Below, piece by piece: positions 39,981-63,288 of a stretch of DNA of 64,000 bases. How positions within the stretch are numbered: position 1 is the stretch's first letter; the number at the start of each line of letters is the position of its first letter. The position numbers and the translations under genes are program-made. The notes beneath the pieces are model-generated. The model made no database searches. It worked only from the letters and a program-made list of their open reading frames with translations, and was not told where the DNA came from. The stretch is from Halothermothrix sp. (GTDB taxonomy: Bacteria; Bacillota; Halanaerobiia; DY22613), in the NCBI GenBank assembly GCA_016841825.1, contig JAENYK010000004.1, positions 62,001 to 126,000 on the forward strand. Direction: 5' to 3'.

Positions 39981-41096
39981 TTAACTAATCTGACCGACGA
40001 TCTTCTTTAAGTTAAATTTGCCATTCTGTCTTAATCCCTTAACTAATTCAGTGGTCTCATTAAAATTCATCTCCTCTTCAGGTTGACAATATTTTTGGAA
40101 GTATGAATACACTTCATTCCAGTGGTCTTCCATTCGGTATTTCTTATAAATCTTCAAACTCTCCTTCAAAAACAACAACATATTTTTGCGATCATTCTTC
40201 TCTTGAGAATACTGGCCCATCAGAAAGAATAGTTGGGACAGTTGTTTTTCTTTCCCCAGATTAAACCGATAAGCCAACCCTTCTAACAAAAGTTCAATCG
40301 CTTCTTTGCATAATCTCCTACTCTTCTCCAGATCAACTTTCAGATAAATCTTACCTAATTGATATAGAGTACCGGGCAACTTATCTGTATTATATTTGCG
40401 TTGAATCTGACAACTATATGTAAAAGCACTAATCGCTCGCTGTTCATCTCCCAGTTTGTAGTGCAGATAACCCAGATCATCCAGAACCAGTCCAACCTGA
40501 AGCTCTTCTTTTAAATGCCGCCATTTAGGCAGGGTTTGGTAATAGTTCTCTTTCGCTTTATTTAATTCACCCATCTGTAAATACATCTGAGCTAACGCTT
40601 GCATACTTAAGGTCTCTTGATAGATAAAGCCACTAGATCTAGCTTTCATCATACCTTCTTCCAGATAAAATCTGGCCAGATCTTCTTTATCTAACCCGCG
40701 CAAACACACCCCAAGCTGATAATAAATCTGACATTTAAGTTGAATCTCTTCATCCCTATCCTCAAATATTAAAGATAATGCTTCCTCAAACTTCTCTCTG
40801 GCCTTGAGTAATTTTCCCTCCTCAATCAACAAGATCCCCTGATAATAATAAGAAAGTGACAGATCTAAAGAATCTTTTACATCATTAAAATATTTCATTG
40901 CCTTTTCCAACGCATCATAAGCCAGTGGATAATTTTTAATCTTCTGGTATATCTGACTCTGGTTCAAATATAACCTACCAATAAGTTGTGGATTAGATTT
41001 GTGTTCCAAATGCCGATATAATAAAGTTTTGATTTTTGATAAATTTCCCACATCTGGATCATCAGCAAATTCTAACCGATACGCATCCCATCTCAT
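39981..41096 (-). CDS. TPR-repeat protein
   Basis: A 371-residue cytosolic protein made of about eight tetratricopeptide repeats. Examples are NYPLAYDALEKAMKYFNDV, LDKEDLARFYLEEGMMKA, GELNKAKENYYQTLPKW and GDEQRAISAFTYSCQ. There is no HTH, signal peptide or catalytic motif. The start at 41096 (MRWDAYRLEF) follows GGGGAGG. TPR proteins of this form occur as Rap-like regulators or as scaffold proteins. It shares the general style of the TPR protein at 57126 but I see no close sequence match. The role is unknown. Confidence 0.75.
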   Translation of the reverse strand: MRWDAYRLEFADDPDVGNLSKIKTLLYRHLEHKSNPQLIGRLYLNQSQIYQKIKNYPLAYDALEKAMKYFNDVKDSLDLSLSYYYQGILLIEEGKLLKAREKFEEALSLIFEDRDEEIQLKCQIYYQLGVCLRGLDKEDLARFYLEEGMMKARSSGFIYQETLSMQALAQMYLQMGELNKAKENYYQTLPKWRHLKEELQVGLVLDDLGYLHYKLGDEQRAISAFTYSCQIQRKYNTDKLPGTLYQLGKIYLKVDLEKSRRLCKEAIELLLEGLAYRFNLGKEKQLSQLFFLMGQYSQEKNDRKNMLLFLKESLKIYKKYRMEDHWNEVYSYFQKYCQPEEEMNFNETTELVKGLRQNGKFNLKKIVGQIS

Positions 41097-41451
41097 CTGT
41101 GTGACCTCCCCTATATTCTCTCTATACAATCATAATATTAAATATATTTTTTTGGTTTCCTGCATGAATATAGAAATAATTTTATGAGCTTTCTACTTTT
41201 TTGACAATAGACAAAGAATTCAATTCTATATCCCTTTCCAGAGTATAAGAATTTATAAAACTTTAACTGAAGGTTAATTTACATCCTATTACCTTAGCCC
41301 TTAACGAAAAACTTTTAAAAAATTTCCCAGGACATGTTTAAACACATCCTGGAGAGGTGATACTTATATCAGAGACATTGACCAGGCTGGCAGTTTTCCT
41401 ACCGAATAAATTGCTAGTTTGGTGAATATAAATTTATAAGAGGTGAGTAAA
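41097..41451. other. Divergent intergenic region
   Basis: Separates the TPR gene from the plus-strand hypothetical. It contains an imperfect palindrome CCAGGACATGTTT / AAACACATCCTGG (41328-41353). A GGAGAGGTG further on has no convincing coding frame after it. No gene seen. Confidence 0.4.
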
Positions 41452-56701: not shown

Positions 56702-56944
56702 AAATGTTTCCTCCTTTGAATATTTGCCTAGAATATTTTTACTGTTGGTATATTTATTCAAGTTGTAGTTACTTTGGTTGATTACAACCTATTGACTTAA
56801 TTCATAAAATTTTTTCACGTTAAAATGATGTTTGATGACTTAAATCTAAATAAAGTGTTCCGGAGGTTATAAACCCGAAAACTTAATGCCAAAATGTTGT
56901 CAATTAAAAATACATTTTTATCGTTCATAAACAGATGAAATAAA

Positions 56945-56968
56945 AGAGACTCCTTGAGTGGAGTCTCT
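56945..56968 (-). terminator. Terminator of the TPR-regulator/peptide unit
   Basis: On the minus strand AGAGACTCC-ACTCAA-GGAGTCTCT followed by TTTATTT; perfect 9-bp stem ending nine bases after the peptide stop. Confidence 0.88.
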
Positions 56969-56976
56969 TCATGTGA

Positions 56977-57111
56977 CTATCCAGTTATATCAATAATAAT
57001 ACTTGTAGGAGATCCCTGAGTTCCCGGATGCCCATTTGGATCTGCGAAAGCACTCCCCCCACCGATTACAAGAATCGCCAGCAGAACAATCAGACTAATT
57101 AATTTTTTCAT
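56977..57111 (-). CDS. Small exported peptide, candidate signalling pheromone precursor
   Basis: A 44-residue peptide. A strong signal sequence (MKKLISLIVLLAILVIGGG, cleavage likely after SAFA) leaves a 21-residue tail that begins DPNGHPGTQGSP and ends in the hydrophobic TSIIIDITG. GGGGGG is spaced well before the ATG. It starts 14 bases after the stop of the TPR gene and shares its terminator, so it is the second gene of a two-gene unit. The form (tiny exported precursor following a TPR protein) is that of Phr/RRNPP pheromones; the C-terminal IIIDITG also resembles in style the aliphatic SHP peptides. No family was recognised; a secreted peptide of other function is possible. Confidence 0.7.
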   Translation of the reverse strand: MKKLISLIVLLAILVIGGGSAFADPNGHPGTQGSPTSIIIDITG

Positions 57112-57125
57112 TCCATATCCCCCCT

Positions 57126-58103
57126 TTAAAGCCTTTTATATAACTCTGTACCTCTAAAATCCTCTTTTAAAGTATCTTTCAAAGATTTTAATCTATCTAT
57201 TTTATATTCATTTACAATCTCATTTATTTTTATTAGACAATCAAATGCCAGGTTCATTGCTTCTGCTTTTTTCAGAGACTCAAATGCTAAATAGAGGGTA
57301 TCCAATGCAGTAAACACCTGATCTGCTCGTAATTCTGCCATTGCTTGATTATAAAATGCCCATCCTAGCTCTAAGTTATCATTATATTTAGTGGCAATAA
57401 TTTCAGCTTTTCGAGTATATCCTCTAACTTCATCCAATACATCAACGTCTCTATTAAACTTCAAACATATTGAAGCTAAATTATTGTATATTTTGGGCAG
57501 GTCTTTTTCTTCAAAGTATTGTACAGCCTCTTTGGCAATATCAATAGCTTTATCAATCTCTCCAAGATAAAAATAATAAACACTTTGATTATCCAGAATC
57601 AAACCTTTTAAGTCATTTCTTACTTCACTGAAATTTTTCATACTAGAATCTAAAAATAGTTTTATTTCTTTAAAATACTTTTCTTTCCTTTCGATTTTAT
57701 ACAAAGCTAAATTAGCCCAAATTACATTCAAATACGTTTCTACTAACAAATTAACATCTTCAATCTGACTCAAATACTTCTTAAATATAGATCTGGCATC
57801 AACTAATCCCCCTCGATAACCGATCATCACACCCTTAAAATTATTCAGATAAATTAGTTTTTCTAGATTTCCGGAGTTATGTATCTCTGCATCATTCACA
57901 AATTCAAGTGCCTTTGAATATTGGTATAGTTTATATAGACCTCGAACCTTTAAAAATAAAACATCCGGTAAAAATTCTGTTTCACTCATTGCTAATAACT
58001 CTGCCTTACCTATGTTCGACATAAAATCTAACAAATCCTTCTTTTCTAGACATAGTTTTGCATCTTCGTAAAACTTTTCAGTGGACACCATAATATCTAT
58101 CAT
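57126..58103 (-). CDS. TPR-repeat protein, candidate RRNPP-like peptide receptor
   Basis: A 325-residue all-helical cytosolic protein of about seven degenerate TPRs (YQYSKALEFVNDAEI, GEIDKAIDIAKEAVQYFEE, DQVFTALDTLYLAFESL). It lacks an N-terminal HTH, a membrane helix or an enzyme motif. Start MIDIMVSTEK follows GGAGG. The downstream exported peptide gene and the upstream symmetrical promoter region make it look like a Rap-type receptor whose output might be protein binding. It could also be an unrelated TPR scaffold; the pairing with the peptide is the main argument. Confidence 0.72.
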   Translation of the reverse strand: MIDIMVSTEKFYEDAKLCLEKKDLLDFMSNIGKAELLAMSETEFLPDVLFLKVRGLYKLYQYSKALEFVNDAEIHNSGNLEKLIYLNNFKGVMIGYRGGLVDARSIFKKYLSQIEDVNLLVETYLNVIWANLALYKIERKEKYFKEIKLFLDSSMKNFSEVRNDLKGLILDNQSVYYFYLGEIDKAIDIAKEAVQYFEEKDLPKIYNNLASICLKFNRDVDVLDEVRGYTRKAEIIATKYNDNLELGWAFYNQAMAELRADQVFTALDTLYLAFESLKKAEAMNLAFDCLIKINEIVNEYKIDRLKSLKDTLKEDFRGTELYKRL

Positions 58104-58154
58104 CCTGTTACCTCCATTTTATATTTTTCTAAATACATACATTAATTACTATTT

Positions 58155-58217
58155 ATTATATCACTCATGTAAGTTAAATTCAATATATAATTTGCCTTTT
58201 TTATAATTTAACTTACA
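58155..58217 (-). promoter_or_regulatory. Promoter with 13-bp inverted repeat upstream of the TPR gene
   Basis: Minus-strand promoter TTGAAT (58178-58183), 17-base spacer, TATAAT (58155-58160). A perfect inverted repeat TGTAAGTTAAATT (58168-58180) / AATTTAACTTACA (58205-58217), 24 bases apart, overlaps its spacer and -35 and flanks the region just upstream. A regulator binding both arms would control transcription of the TPR/peptide unit. Confidence 0.72.
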
Positions 58218-58647
58218 TTTTTGATATTATGTCCACATAGCACCAACTGATCTTAAATTTATTTTAGATGAACAGTAAAAAAACCCAAATTACCCTTTAT
58301 AACTAAATTCTGGTTTAGAAAAATCTTCCGTTGGATTAGAAATATTCACCTTTTAATTTTTTGCATCGTCTTTCCTTTGACCATTCCACTTTAAAACAAC
58401 AGCTCTCAATTAAAGCTAAATTTTTGATCAAAAGCCAGGCAATACATGCACATTATTTTTTTCAACTAGGGAGAATTTCGGAGAAATGCCAAAAAACAAA
58501 ATTGGCGTTATTGACATTGGAGTAGTCAAGATCAAATTGCAAGCTGTACACACCAATGTCCAATATCGCAGATGATCTTAAAAAATGGAATTGAGCATCT
58601 ACTAATAGCAGAAATTTTAAAGTACAAAAGTATTGAAGGATGAAAAG
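58218..58647. other. Non-coding stretch, possible gene remnant
   Basis: No intact gene. A 29-codon frame at 58486-58575 (plus strand) begins MPKNKIGVIDIG, reminiscent of an actin-fold or Ppx/GppA N-terminus, and soon stops; it may be a remnant or chance. The rest is AT-rich. Confidence 0.3.
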
Positions 58648-58698
58648 AAGGAGCTGTCCTTCAATGGTTTGTGAAAAACCATTGAAGGACAGCTCCTT
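58648..58698. terminator. Very long perfect hairpin
   Basis: AAGGAGCTGTCCTTCAATGG plus TT pairs perfectly with its complement across a short loop (about 22 bp), ending CTCCTTTC. It lies in non-coding DNA with no clear gene upstream on either strand; it could be the relic of a terminator or a regulatory stem-loop. Confidence 0.6.
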
Positions 58699-58899: not shown

Positions 58900-58932
58900 G
58901 TCCTCTGGGCAGATATTACTCTCCCAGAGGAC
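58900..58932 (-). terminator. Terminator overlapping the Rpn-family gene end
   Basis: GTCCTCTGGG / CCCAGAGGAC 10-bp stem spanning the stop codon of the Rpn-family gene. Confidence 0.6.
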
Positions 58933-59860
58933 ACCCTAACTGCTCAGCCATTTTTGATATCTCTTCTGCGGATAAATCGGTAAACTTAACTATCTTGCTG
59001 ACAGATATCCCATCCTCAATCATTCTCCTGGCAATATCTAGTTTACCTTCCTGTATCCCCTCTTTTTTTCCCTCTATTATACCTTCTCTTCTACCCTCAA
59101 TCCTACCCTCTTTCCGTCCTCTTAACTGATAGGAAGTAACAAAACCCATTACCTTCTCACTCTCCTTTCGACCAAACTCAGCCTCTAATCGTCTCTCAAT
59201 GATCAGTTCTTCTTGCTCAGTAAGTGTCATCCCAGAATCGAAATAAGCTATAATCAATTCCACCTTCTCTGCTGGCAGCTCAAGATTAGCTATAATTCTT
59301 AAGTGAGCTAACTTGACATCTATCCGCTCCGCAGGACTATACTTCATTCGGCTTAACATAGCAGCAGCAACGGGATTTAGACAATCTCGATAAGCTCTCC
59401 AGTCCTGCTTTTTTAACTGAACCTTCAAAAACTTGAACCTTAAGGTTTTTAAAAAAGGAAACTCCATTCTGTATTCATCCGTCTCCCGAATCTTCACCCC
59501 CGATGAAAAGACCACTACAGAGAGAATCTTCATCAGCGGATACTTTTCATGCAGCCGGATGAAGTAACTGAACATCTGACGATTATAATCCTTAATCCGC
59601 TGTTCTTGCCCTTCAATATGCAAGATAACCTCTTCTTCCTCACCTCGCATCCGCAGTCGATAGACAAGGTCCGCAATTTTGGTTCTTACATCACCCCTCA
59701 GCCGTAATTCACAGTTCTCCTCCTTAATACTATCCTGCTCAATCAGCAAGGCGATATCTGCAAAACATAAATCCATGAACTCTAACAAAAAATCACCCAT
59801 CAACTGCTTGAACATCCTGTCATAATCGGTATAAGTACCTGCTGAACTATTATTCACCAT
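58916..59860 (-). CDS. Rpn family recombination-promoting nuclease / PD-(D/E)XK transposase-like protein
   Basis: A 314-residue protein of the Rpn (YhgA-like, transposase_31/DUF4351-type) group. It starts DRMFKQLMGDFLLEFMDL. Its PD-(D/E)XK core has ADLVYRLRMRG (D), then VILHIEGQEQRIKDYN (E-x-Q), the acids spaced as expected of the nuclease. The C-terminal third holds charged helices with repeated GRKEGRIEGRREG-like units, commonly variable in length in this family. These proteins cut DNA and promote recombination in E. coli; they lack inverted-repeat ends and are not true insertion sequences. Repeat copy E lies upstream. Confidence 0.82.
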   Translation of the reverse strand: MVNNSSAGTYTDYDRMFKQLMGDFLLEFMDLCFADIALLIEQDSIKEENCELRLRGDVRTKIADLVYRLRMRGEEEEVILHIEGQEQRIKDYNRQMFSYFIRLHEKYPLMKILSVVVFSSGVKIRETDEYRMEFPFLKTLRFKFLKVQLKKQDWRAYRDCLNPVAAAMLSRMKYSPAERIDVKLAHLRIIANLELPAEKVELIIAYFDSGMTLTEQEELIIERRLEAEFGRKESEKVMGFVTSYQLRGRKEGRIEGRREGIIEGKKEGIQEGKLDIARRMIEDGISVSKIVKFTDLSAEEISKMAEQLGCPLGE

Positions 59861-60339: not shown

Positions 60340-61068
60340 CTATAGTATCTCTTTAAGAAAACTACAGATTTCATCCGCTGCTTTTTTCCAATTTGGATCC
60401 AACATCATGTTATGACATAAATCCCTCAGTATAACTGTTTTTGCTTTGAAAAATATTCCATTATTGATTACTACACTCACCGGAACACATTGATCGTTCA
60501 AAGAACCCATAACCAGGCAGGGGAAATTTATCTCACGGTTCTTCGGCACAAAATTTTGCATGGTAGCCATTTCAACTTTTTTGGATTCAGTTTGCAGCTG
60601 CTGCAAATATTTTTGCGTTTCAGCTTCAGAAAGCCGATTGGAATAAAAAGTTTCTGATTGATTTTTCGAGGTCTGCCAGATACGAATCTTGATTAATTCA
60701 AATAGAATGTGTTTTACAGGCATAGGTGCTAATAAAACCAATGCTGAAAGGTTGTTTTTATATTTTGATAAATAAAGCTGAACTACTTTACTACTTAGTG
60801 AATGAGCGACTATAATTGGTTTGGCAGGAAGAACTGAGATTAGCCAGTGCAGATCGTCAACATAATCATCAATGGTAATTGCGTGGACATTTGAAACACT
60901 ATCACTATTTCCATGGTTACGATAACTAAGGGCATACAGATTATACTCTTGCTGATGAAGATACGGAAGAAAATGTACATCCCAACACCAGGCTGCATGT
61001 CCCGCCCCATGAAGAAACACAATATTATTTAAGTAATTATTATCATACTCAATAACTTCAAGTGTCAT
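60340..61068 (-). CDS. Alpha/beta hydrolase, probable thioesterase-type editing or release enzyme
   Basis: A 242-residue alpha/beta hydrolase. FLHGAGHAAWCWDV carries the oxyanion HG, the nucleophile elbow is VAHSLSSKVVQ (serine near residue 105), the acid is in GSLNDQCVPV and the catalytic histidine in LRDLCHNMML near the C-terminus. The triad is complete. AGGAGG precedes the ATG. It lies nine bases after the reductase/methyltransferase gene and so belongs to the nonribosomal peptide cluster, where a stand-alone hydrolase could act as a type II thioesterase or release the product. Lactonase/esterase activity is an alternative. Confidence 0.8.
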   Translation of the reverse strand: MTLEVIEYDNNYLNNIVFLHGAGHAAWCWDVHFLPYLHQQEYNLYALSYRNHGNSDSVSNVHAITIDDYVDDLHWLISVLPAKPIIVAHSLSSKVVQLYLSKYKNNLSALVLLAPMPVKHILFELIKIRIWQTSKNQSETFYSNRLSEAETQKYLQQLQTESKKVEMATMQNFVPKNREINFPCLVMGSLNDQCVPVSVVINNGIFFKAKTVILRDLCHNMMLDPNWKKAADEICSFLKEIL

Positions 61069-61077
61069 ATAAACCTC

Positions 61078-63288
61078 CTATTTTTTGACTATAAAGAGTT
61101 TTTGTCCTAACAAATTTAATGGATGATTATCTTTGGGATATTCCATGACGATTTCTTTTGCTCCAGCTGTCTGAAAAACAGTTCGCCACTGCCGCGTGGA
61201 AAGAAAAGTTGTATTATCATCCTTTCTAACATCTTCCCGATGCTCCATCATAAACGCCTGTGAGACAAGCATATCCAGCACTTCCGTCACTGTCTCCACT
61301 ACGAACAGCCATCCATTATCTGCTAACGTATCAAGAAGGTCCGCAACCGTACTGTCTGTATTTTGGGCGTTATTCAAGACTCCGACGGCAATGATGATAT
61401 CCGCGCTTCCACTTTCAATTCCCTGTTTTGATAAGCTACGATCAATATTGACCAGCTGATACGATATCGGTAAATTAGCCGAAAACTGTCTTTTCGCCTC
61501 TCGCAAAAAAAACGTTGAGAGATCTGTAAACATGTATGTAACACAGTTAAGATACGGGGTCTGTGATAAATGGTAAAAAACCGTTTCAGTAGTTGCTCCC
61601 GTGCCCGCTCCAATTTCAAGTATATTTAGTTTTTGCTGTGCTGACTTTTGAAAAACTCCTTTTTGCTTGCCGATAGAAATCACTTTTTTTGCGATAATAT
61701 AGTTAAAATATTTGAGGATCAACGTTTCTTTATAAAGACTATTAGCATAATCGGTACGACCTTCAGGAAATAAAAGCAAAGTTGCCTTCTGCTGCCCACT
61801 AATCAGCTCTGGCAGACTGTTGATGTTGTTTAATAGATATTCAGTTGTCAAAGGTGAGCCCAGGCGGTAATTCCACAAATAGGTTACCTGATCCCATTTC
61901 GATTTCAACTGTTCTTCAGAGATCCTCTGGGTGCCGATGTATTTTCCATCTGCATTTTTTAAATACCTCCGCTGACAAAGCACCTTTAACCAACGCAGAA
62001 TAACATGAACCTGCTCTGGCGCTGCCTTCAATGCCGTAAGTATCTCAGCAGTATCATGCTCTGCTTCGTTTGATAAAAATAGGCCATTCTGTTGAAACAC
62101 ATGGAGCATTGTCTGCAAGATGGTTTGATCTCTTTTCTCCAAACAATGTAACAAGTATTCCTTATCCAGGGTTTCACAATAATCCTTGATTGTAATCTCC
62201 TGGCGACTGTCCTCCGAAATAAATTGCTGGACTGCCTGTTTTAAGTAATATGGATTACAGGCTCGATAAATCACTTTTTTAGTTGTTTCAGTGGTATTTA
62301 TCTCCTGAGCAAGCAGATTCCAATTTTTTGCACATAAAATTTCTCTCTGCGCGGATGCTGCATCCTGTCTGTTGGTAAAGATCTTTTCCCGCATTTTTGA
62401 TAGTTCAGTTTTTATTGCCTCTGCCCATTCCTGAGAAATAAACTCACGAAAGTTCATCTTTTTACTGTTCCTAATAGTCGTACATGGAGAATCAAAAGAA
62501 TAGCTGTATTGTTCGCTTTTTTGAAAAGGTGTGTTATCATATGGCATTATCATATATTGTTCCCAAGCAATCGTACCAGCAAGACCTGTAACAGAAAGAT
62601 TTCCATTACAAGTGCCTATAGTCAGACGGTGCAGTTGCGGAAACAACAATCCAGACTCTGGAGAACATCTACTCCGTATCCTAAACAGAAAGGGAATTCC
62701 ACCAAGCTCACCATTTACTATAGAGTTTTCATTTGATACAGATGTCTGAGATTTTATCGTAAACATCCTTGTCTGAGGTAAACTATCAATTAATAAATGG
62801 ATAATAGAATAAACAATACCAATATCCAAATCAATATCAATATGGGTAATTTTTGTTTGTTTAGTAAGCATCGCCATGCAATTACCAAAAGCAGCCAGGG
62901 AACTCAGATACACAAGGGGATTTCCCACTGCATAACAAAGATGATTTTTCCTGGCGATTTTCATCCACCTAATAATATCTTCATAATTAACAGGCTGTTC
63001 CTGCAGGACATGCAATCCATGTTCCAATAGCTTTTCGACCAATTCCGCAGACGCTTCCGGTGGTGTATTTATTACACTAGATGTTATCATTGCCAGCTGA
63101 ATATCATTTGGGAGCTCTGCTACATTTGAATACAATTTGATCTTGTAATACTGTGCACATTGTTGATTAACTTTGGTCTCCCTGGCCAATAATCCAACAA
63201 TTTCAAATTCTCCCTTTAAGCCCTGCAGTGCATCCAGGGTTATCTGGCATGAAGTATCTCCACAAACCAAAATTTTAAAGCACTCCAT
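61078..63288 (-). CDS. Thiazolinyl-imide-reductase-like / SAM methyltransferase fusion
   Basis: A 736-residue protein of two parts. Residues 1-360 resemble the Gfo/Idh-type thiazolinyl imide reductases of yersiniabactin/pyochelin pathways (Irp3, PchG): Rossmann start FKILVCGD, then HVLQEQPVNYEDII and VYSIIHLLIDSL. The glycine-rich loop reads CGDTSCQIT without the usual GxGxxG-like spacing, and the QEHPVH-type site is QEQPVN, so reductase activity is doubtful. Residues about 390-736 are a methyltransferase of the NRPS/PKS type: helical lead LLLFPEGRTDYANSLYKE, SAM-binding LEIGAGTGATTETVFYH and TLADNGWLFVVE. It should methylate C or N of a carrier-bound intermediate. A Shine-Dalgarno AAAGGAT precedes the ATG. 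Confidence 0.78.
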   Translation of the reverse strand: MECFKILVCGDTSCQITLDALQGLKGEFEIVGLLARETKVNQQCAQYYKIKLYSNVAELPNDIQLAMITSSVINTPPEASAELVEKLLEHGLHVLQEQPVNYEDIIRWMKIARKNHLCYAVGNPLVYLSSLAAFGNCMAMLTKQTKITHIDIDLDIGIVYSIIHLLIDSLPQTRMFTIKSQTSVSNENSIVNGELGGIPFLFRIRSRCSPESGLLFPQLHRLTIGTCNGNLSVTGLAGTIAWEQYMIMPYDNTPFQKSEQYSYSFDSPCTTIRNSKKMNFREFISQEWAEAIKTELSKMREKIFTNRQDAASAQREILCAKNWNLLAQEINTTETTKKVIYRACNPYYLKQAVQQFISEDSRQEITIKDYCETLDKEYLLHCLEKRDQTILQTMLHVFQQNGLFLSNEAEHDTAEILTALKAAPEQVHVILRWLKVLCQRRYLKNADGKYIGTQRISEEQLKSKWDQVTYLWNYRLGSPLTTEYLLNNINSLPELISGQQKATLLLFPEGRTDYANSLYKETLILKYFNYIIAKKVISIGKQKGVFQKSAQQKLNILEIGAGTGATTETVFYHLSQTPYLNCVTYMFTDLSTFFLREAKRQFSANLPISYQLVNIDRSLSKQGIESGSADIIIAVGVLNNAQNTDSTVADLLDTLADNGWLFVVETVTEVLDMLVSQAFMMEHREDVRKDDNTTFLSTRQWRTVFQTAGAKEIVMEYPKDNHPLNLLGQKLFIVKK

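Follow-up and report, generated by a model that had tools for sequence, protein, structure and literature searches.

Does a gene for a TPR protein without a DNA-binding domain, followed at once by a gene for a small exported peptide, form a peptide-signalling unit of the RRNPP type, and through which partner would such a pair act? The question is raised by a locus close to one end of the window, the 64,000-nt stretch of DNA analysed here. We compared this locus with its paralogues in the same genome (G000; 5.08 Mb in 43 contigs) and with the genome of a second genus of the same bacterial family (G001; 3,557,532 bp in a single contig), the only close relative in the comparison.

The TPR-peptide unit of the window

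The unit is compact and encoded on the minus strand. A sigma-A-type promoter with an extended -10 element (TTGAAT-17-TATAAT, 58155..58183) precedes the receptor gene (57126..58103), which has an AGGAGG-like RBS and encodes a 325-aa TPR protein with neither an HTH nor a signal peptide. The propeptide MKKLISLIVLLAILVIGGGSAFA/DPNGHPGTQGSPTSIIIDITG (56977..57111, minus strand, 44 aa) starts 14 nt downstream. It has a Sec-type signal—a basic N-terminal end and a hydrophobic core, as judged by hydropathy—followed by a mature part of about 21 aa. An intrinsic terminator on the same strand (56943..56970; 11 bp with a T-rich tail) closes the unit, in a region where terminator-like sites number five against the 1.1 expected from shuffling. 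Every element of the compact unit outlined in the preliminary description was recovered, and sigma-A-type promoters with an extended -10 are also found some 70–100 nt before most paralogues.

Taken on its own, the window protein gives a weak TPR match (E 0.019). In a Pfam scan all 14 aligned paralogues match TPR_12 (best 4e-10), and the predicted TPR nature of the window protein is supported as a property of the family. No HTH family is among the Pfam matches of the window protein or its paralogues, and RNPP_C is matched by one paralogue only (E 0.0012). A profile search of the PDB showed generic TPR proteins only, and no RRNPP chain, among the 60 matches listed, and single-sequence prediction gave an all-helical, low-confidence model of the window receptor (pLDDT 45).

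The promoter had been placed inside a perfect 13-bp inverted repeat. The repeat is real, and repeats of at least 13 bp were reached in none of 1,000 dinucleotide shuffles of the 300-nt upstream region, but it measures 14 bp and does not enclose the promoter. Its proximal arm (58167..58180, 14 nt, perfect) overlaps the 3' half of the -35 element and the spacer, and its distal arm (58205..58218) lies upstream of the -35. We regard it as a candidate operator. A regulon defined by this palindrome was rejected because, in the comparison with the paralogues, the repeat is unique to the window unit and because its half-site is not enriched genome-wide (17 sites with up to one mismatch vs 21 for the reversed control).

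Several other features lie around the unit. Upstream, a perfect 20-bp inverted repeat forms a hairpin with a 7-nt loop (58650-58696) that reads as a terminator or as the end of a small mobile element. The unit also adjoins a gene for an Rpn-type recombination-promoting nuclease (58916-59860, weak TIGR01784 match), a close copy of which (L086:1553-2629) flanks another unit, L004. The latter (L086:4500-9890, contig C41 of G000) adjoins a CRISPR array whose Cas1, Cas2, Cas4, and Cas7-like genes resemble type I-C on visual reading. The window further holds a second TPR protein (39981-41129, about 370 aa), behind which there is no peptide ORF, and two T-box leaders on the minus strand (Rfam RF00230; 15351-15590 and 19492-19760).

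Linkage and spread of the family

The pairing recurs across the family. G000 encodes about 20 receptor paralogues (25–48% identity), and 15 of them have a correctly oriented signal-peptide ORF of 37–61 aa behind their stop codon, at distances from a 4-nt overlap to a 52-nt gap. In G001, all four receptor homologues have a downstream peptide. When more distant TPR clades are included, the count rises to about 24 units in G000 and 10 in G001. In a comparison that took in all fetched regions, a downstream signal-peptide ORF was found behind 22 of 40 TPR genes vs 2 of 260 other genes of at least 200 aa (Fisher p=2e-20), and one of the two exceptions is itself a TPR-like protein with four GPTAPIE[VA] repeats in its propeptide. 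A profile of the peptides had 19 matches at E≤2e-8 over both genomes, all of them immediately downstream of a receptor gene; as the profile was built from these same peptides, the informative point is the absence of other strong matches, since in neither genome did one lie away from a TPR gene. The best candidate for an orphan pheromone (C22:377630) follows a TPR-like gene and has a propeptide with four repeats.

These results uphold the proposal of an RRNPP-like TPR receptor with an exported peptide. Homologues followed by a small signal-peptide ORF with a varying C-terminus, which the preliminary description had suggested searching for, occur in both genera. It had also named three findings that would speak against it: homologues lacking the peptide, conservation confined to the signal sequence, and membership of a known unrelated peptide family. 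None of them applies, because the homologues carry the peptide, its C-terminus differs among them, and a conserved motif lies within the mature part.

The paralogues of G000 that lack a peptide are L010–L013 and L019. L010–L013 are monophyletic in the tree and stand in tandem behind the receptor-peptide pair L003, a possible one-signal-many-receptors arrangement for which ‘eavesdroppers’ are a comparison case (PMC9765709). Two units stand back to back in this region (L085:3533-11592, contig C14 of G000): in one, five consecutive receptors (L003, L012, L011, L010, L013) surround a single peptide and an XRE gene is convergent with them, and the other is a TPR-peptide-XRE module. Elsewhere, one receptor of G001 is followed by two different tandem propeptides (L104:5876-6300). 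A number of receptors (L005, L014, L015, L016, L018, L147, and C30:168126-168335) are truncated or carry a stop or frameshift with their downstream peptide ORFs intact, as if receptors decay while signals persist.

The family was present in 2 of 398 genomes of the phylum and in none of the other 396 sampled, which restricts it to one bacterial family. Searches of genome contigs, viral contigs, plasmids, and phages returned no close relatives, and we therefore consider it private to this lineage and not carried by known mobile elements.

The likely signal

Two stretches of the mature part could be the signal. Directly after the predicted AFA cleavage site lies DPNGHPG (57022..57042, minus strand), and the C-terminus is the hydrophobic tail TSIIIDITG (56980..57006, minus strand), from which the preliminary description had drawn its candidate, the last 5–9 residues. 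Beta-rich tails of this sort are also seen in paralogues (TQVVIFG, SVVIPPEDNPV). Pro/acidic cores are common to the mature parts of the paralogues (DPHGEPD, GPWGDPG, PDPEPG, PHPEPG, GPWPDPD, NNWPDPDE) and are found at the XRE-linked units (DPVWDDEPD, DPAWDDEPS, NPNWADEPD, DPGYIDEPN), the motif patterns having been chosen after viewing the sequences; in some paralogues the Pro-rich core is C-terminal (NWPDPDEN). The likeness of the mature parts exceeds that due to composition (42.7 vs 28.2, sd 0.9; 0 of 300 composition-matched shuffles) and co-varies with receptor identity (Mantel r=0.385, p=2e-4). The signal part is also correlated with receptor relatedness (Mantel r=0.33, p=0.006). The orthologous TPR genes L182 (contig C5 of G000) and L105 (G001) both have multi-copy propeptides, and a repeated core is kept across the genera: GPIQKPV/GPIQRPV in L182 vs about eight GPIEQP-like units (GPIEQP[ML]) in L105. 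Because the mature parts surpass their shuffles and track the receptors, and because this orthologous pair keeps its repeated core, the Pro-rich segment that directly follows the signal peptide—DPNGHPG here, DPHGEPD in a paralogue—is more likely to be the pheromone than the last nine residues.

Multi-copy propeptides are not confined to that pair. A 391-aa TPR-like protein of G000 (L100:5210-6385, contig C22) is followed 1 nt on by a propeptide in which the octapeptide GPTAPIE[VA] occurs four times, likely a multi-copy pheromone. Tandemly duplicated Phr propeptides (PMC11343458) similarly hold several pheromone copies each, as in some relatives here, but the motifs (GPTAPIEV, GPIEQPM) and the receptors are different, and the window peptide is single-copy.

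Partner, output, and described systems

Judging from the genes, the window locus very likely encodes a pheromone and its receptor, and it is probable, with somewhat less assurance, that this RRNPP-type pair acts through a separate DNA-binding partner. The 44-aa propeptide would leave the cell through Sec and then be processed extracellularly to a short Pro/acidic peptide, our best guess being DPNGHPG(T). Import through an oligopeptide permease is plausible because Opp-type binding proteins are abundant (11 and 9 copies of SBP_bac_5 in the two genomes). Once inside, the peptide would bind the groove of the cytoplasmic TPR protein and, since the latter has no DNA-binding domain, alter its hold on another protein, for which an XRE repressor is the likeliest candidate, in the manner of Rap-Phr-Rco of pLS20.

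A protein of about 175 aa with two HTH_3-type domains recurs around the units, and its gene is mostly convergent with the TPR-peptide pair. A unit is found within 600 bp of 7 of the 14 double-HTH XRE genes in G000 (P 6e-10) and of 9 of the 18 in G001 (P 3e-15); these P values are optimistic because the XRE profile was seeded from unit neighbours. In TPR clade A5, which belongs to the same superfamily as A1 (hhalign 99.3%), the module consists of the TPR gene, an overlapping peptide, and a convergent XRE gene (L143, L145, L146, L149, L144); L159 has the order XRE-peptide-TPR, all on one strand. Other double-HTH members—L157 and L151, at flagellar genes, and L158 and L153—stand without TPR or peptide genes at positions conserved in both genera. 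No XRE gene was found beside the window unit or within the window, and most of its close paralogues are also without an adjacent one. Since the unit has none, its partner would be an XRE protein encoded elsewhere, perhaps acting at the 14-bp repeat. Whether the output is an XRE protein rather than a response regulator is, to us, an even call.

The system of the conjugative plasmid pLS20 (PMC3814332, PMC7430634) also has an HTH-less TPR protein with a 44-aa propeptide directly downstream (rap 75-1181, phr 1178-1312) and a convergent rco (1483-1968), and the sister units with XRE genes share its gene order and its convergent repressor of about 160–175 aa. There, Rap binds Rco directly without the peptide, and the peptide releases Rco to repress (PMC7430634). 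Unlike in pLS20, the family described here lacks RapH_N, is chromosomal and multi-copy, and has an XRE partner with two HTH domains. In sequence it has next to nothing in common with Rap of pLS20 (hhalign probability 4%), and the XRE family and Rco match in the HTH only. RapI-PhrI/ImmR of ICEBs1 likewise combines an HTH-less TPR protein and a peptide controlling an XRE repressor, as proposed here, but its ImmR is cleaved by the protease ImmA, and no such protease gene was noticed at our units. NprR, PlcR, Rgg, PrgX, and AimR are TPR receptors of imported peptides encoded adjacently, as is proposed here; they carry their own HTH, whereas here the HTH, if used, would be a separate protein.

An NRPS cluster (condensation, adenylation, methyltransferase, thioesterase), which continues upstream on contig C43, has its 3' end next to the unit. 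The cluster end in the window (60340..63288, minus strand) comprises an alpha/beta hydrolase and a thiazolinyl-reductase-like/methyltransferase fusion (thiazolinyl-reductase-like gene, 61078-63288), which are possible target genes. The sister unit L002 is located immediately upstream of a PKS/NRPS cluster that includes a thioesterase, and L006 adjoins a large multi-domain ORF whose sequence reads as an NRPS. HTH-bearing RRNPP receptors are reported to control neighbouring biosynthetic clusters (PMC10075063). The adjacency of our units to NRPS/PKS clusters may be chance, and the neighbouring cluster is a tentative candidate for the target.

The same pheromone-receptor pair might instead work as Rap proteins do, on a response regulator (by dephosphorylating a Spo0F-like protein or blocking a ComA-like one) and not on an XRE protein. 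The HTH-less, TPR-only architecture is that of Rap, the many solo units without XRE genes recall the many Raps that act on few targets, and Spo0A is present in both genomes. However, RapH_N, the N-terminal three-helix bundle that is the Rap effector domain, had no match above the cut-off in either genome (the B. subtilis control was positive), and Rap membership was rejected. A classical phosphorelay is not expected because Spo0B is absent from both genomes, and the recurrence of XRE genes beside the units also weighs against a response regulator. A Rap-type phosphorelay role is thus less likely, and we consider the Rap-like output improbable.

Much further down the scale is an antimicrobial or toxin-like peptide, with the TPR protein regulating it or conferring immunity. 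Such a product would fit the small size, the export, and the fast-changing tails of the peptides, as well as the NRPS/PKS clusters adjoining some units. Yet, unlike pore formers, the mature parts are short and rich in proline and acidic residues, and some contain repeated 7-8-mers; the units share no recurrent gene for a dedicated exporter or for peptide modification, and we know of no precedent for immunity by a cytosolic TPR protein. Slighter still is the chance that the exported peptide is merely co-transcribed with a housekeeping TPR protein. Some peptide-less TPR relatives are conserved one-to-one between the genera, as this would predict, but it is at odds with linkage in some 24 units here and 10 in the other genus vs about 1% of other genes, with the co-variation of peptide and receptor, and with the repeated motifs inside propeptides. 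A pheromone and its receptor, probably with a separate DNA-binding partner, remain our preferred reading.

G001 is tentatively taken for an Anoxybacter, and for this reason units of this kind have very probably been catalogued computationally. Two accounts (FoldTree PMC12700828; RRNPP_detector PMC10075063) already list, among the RRNPPA receptors without an HTH, a ‘subfamily 17 of Anoxybacter fermentans’; like the window unit, it has an HTH-less TPR receptor adjoining an exported propeptide. From this description, subfamily 17 is very probably the family of the window unit. ‘RRNPP-like’ was apt, but ‘undescribed’ was therefore too strong. The operational definition of RRNPP_detector is a conserved pair of a TPR receptor of 250-500 aa and an adjacent propeptide of 10-100 aa with a Sec signal and an RBS. 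The window pair falls within it, with its 325-aa TPR protein, its 44-aa propeptide 14 nt away, and its conservation across homologues. The parts of the subfamily 17 accounts considered here do not describe the XRE module, the peptide motif, the expansion, or receptor decay before intact peptides. The size of the family, at about 24 units, looks new, as do its pheromone core and motif and the double-HTH XRE module.

A bolder reading, which we hold only tentatively, is that a Halanaerobiales-like anaerobe runs some two to three dozen pheromone channels as a signalling network private to its lineage. The network would be built from three separate genes (HTH-less TPR, propeptide, double-HTH XRE), with the sensor and DNA-binding halves, which other RRNPP proteins fuse, split and mixed, and would have arisen independently of Rap from TPR proteins of the lineage. 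If true, this would be among the larger peptide-signalling repertoires of any one genome, and it would come from a lineage in which signalling of this kind has hardly been studied. Several pairs adjoin the gene regulator they probably switch, and the recurring convergent XRE gene makes it possible to ask directly whether anti-repressor circuits like that of pLS20 are in general use on chromosomes. It is also conceivable, since some units abut NRPS/PKS clusters, that synthetic peptides could switch on silent natural-product genes. With many pairs of the same family in one cell, some decayed and some with several receptors for one peptide, the organism would be a good system in which to study how signal specificity diverges.
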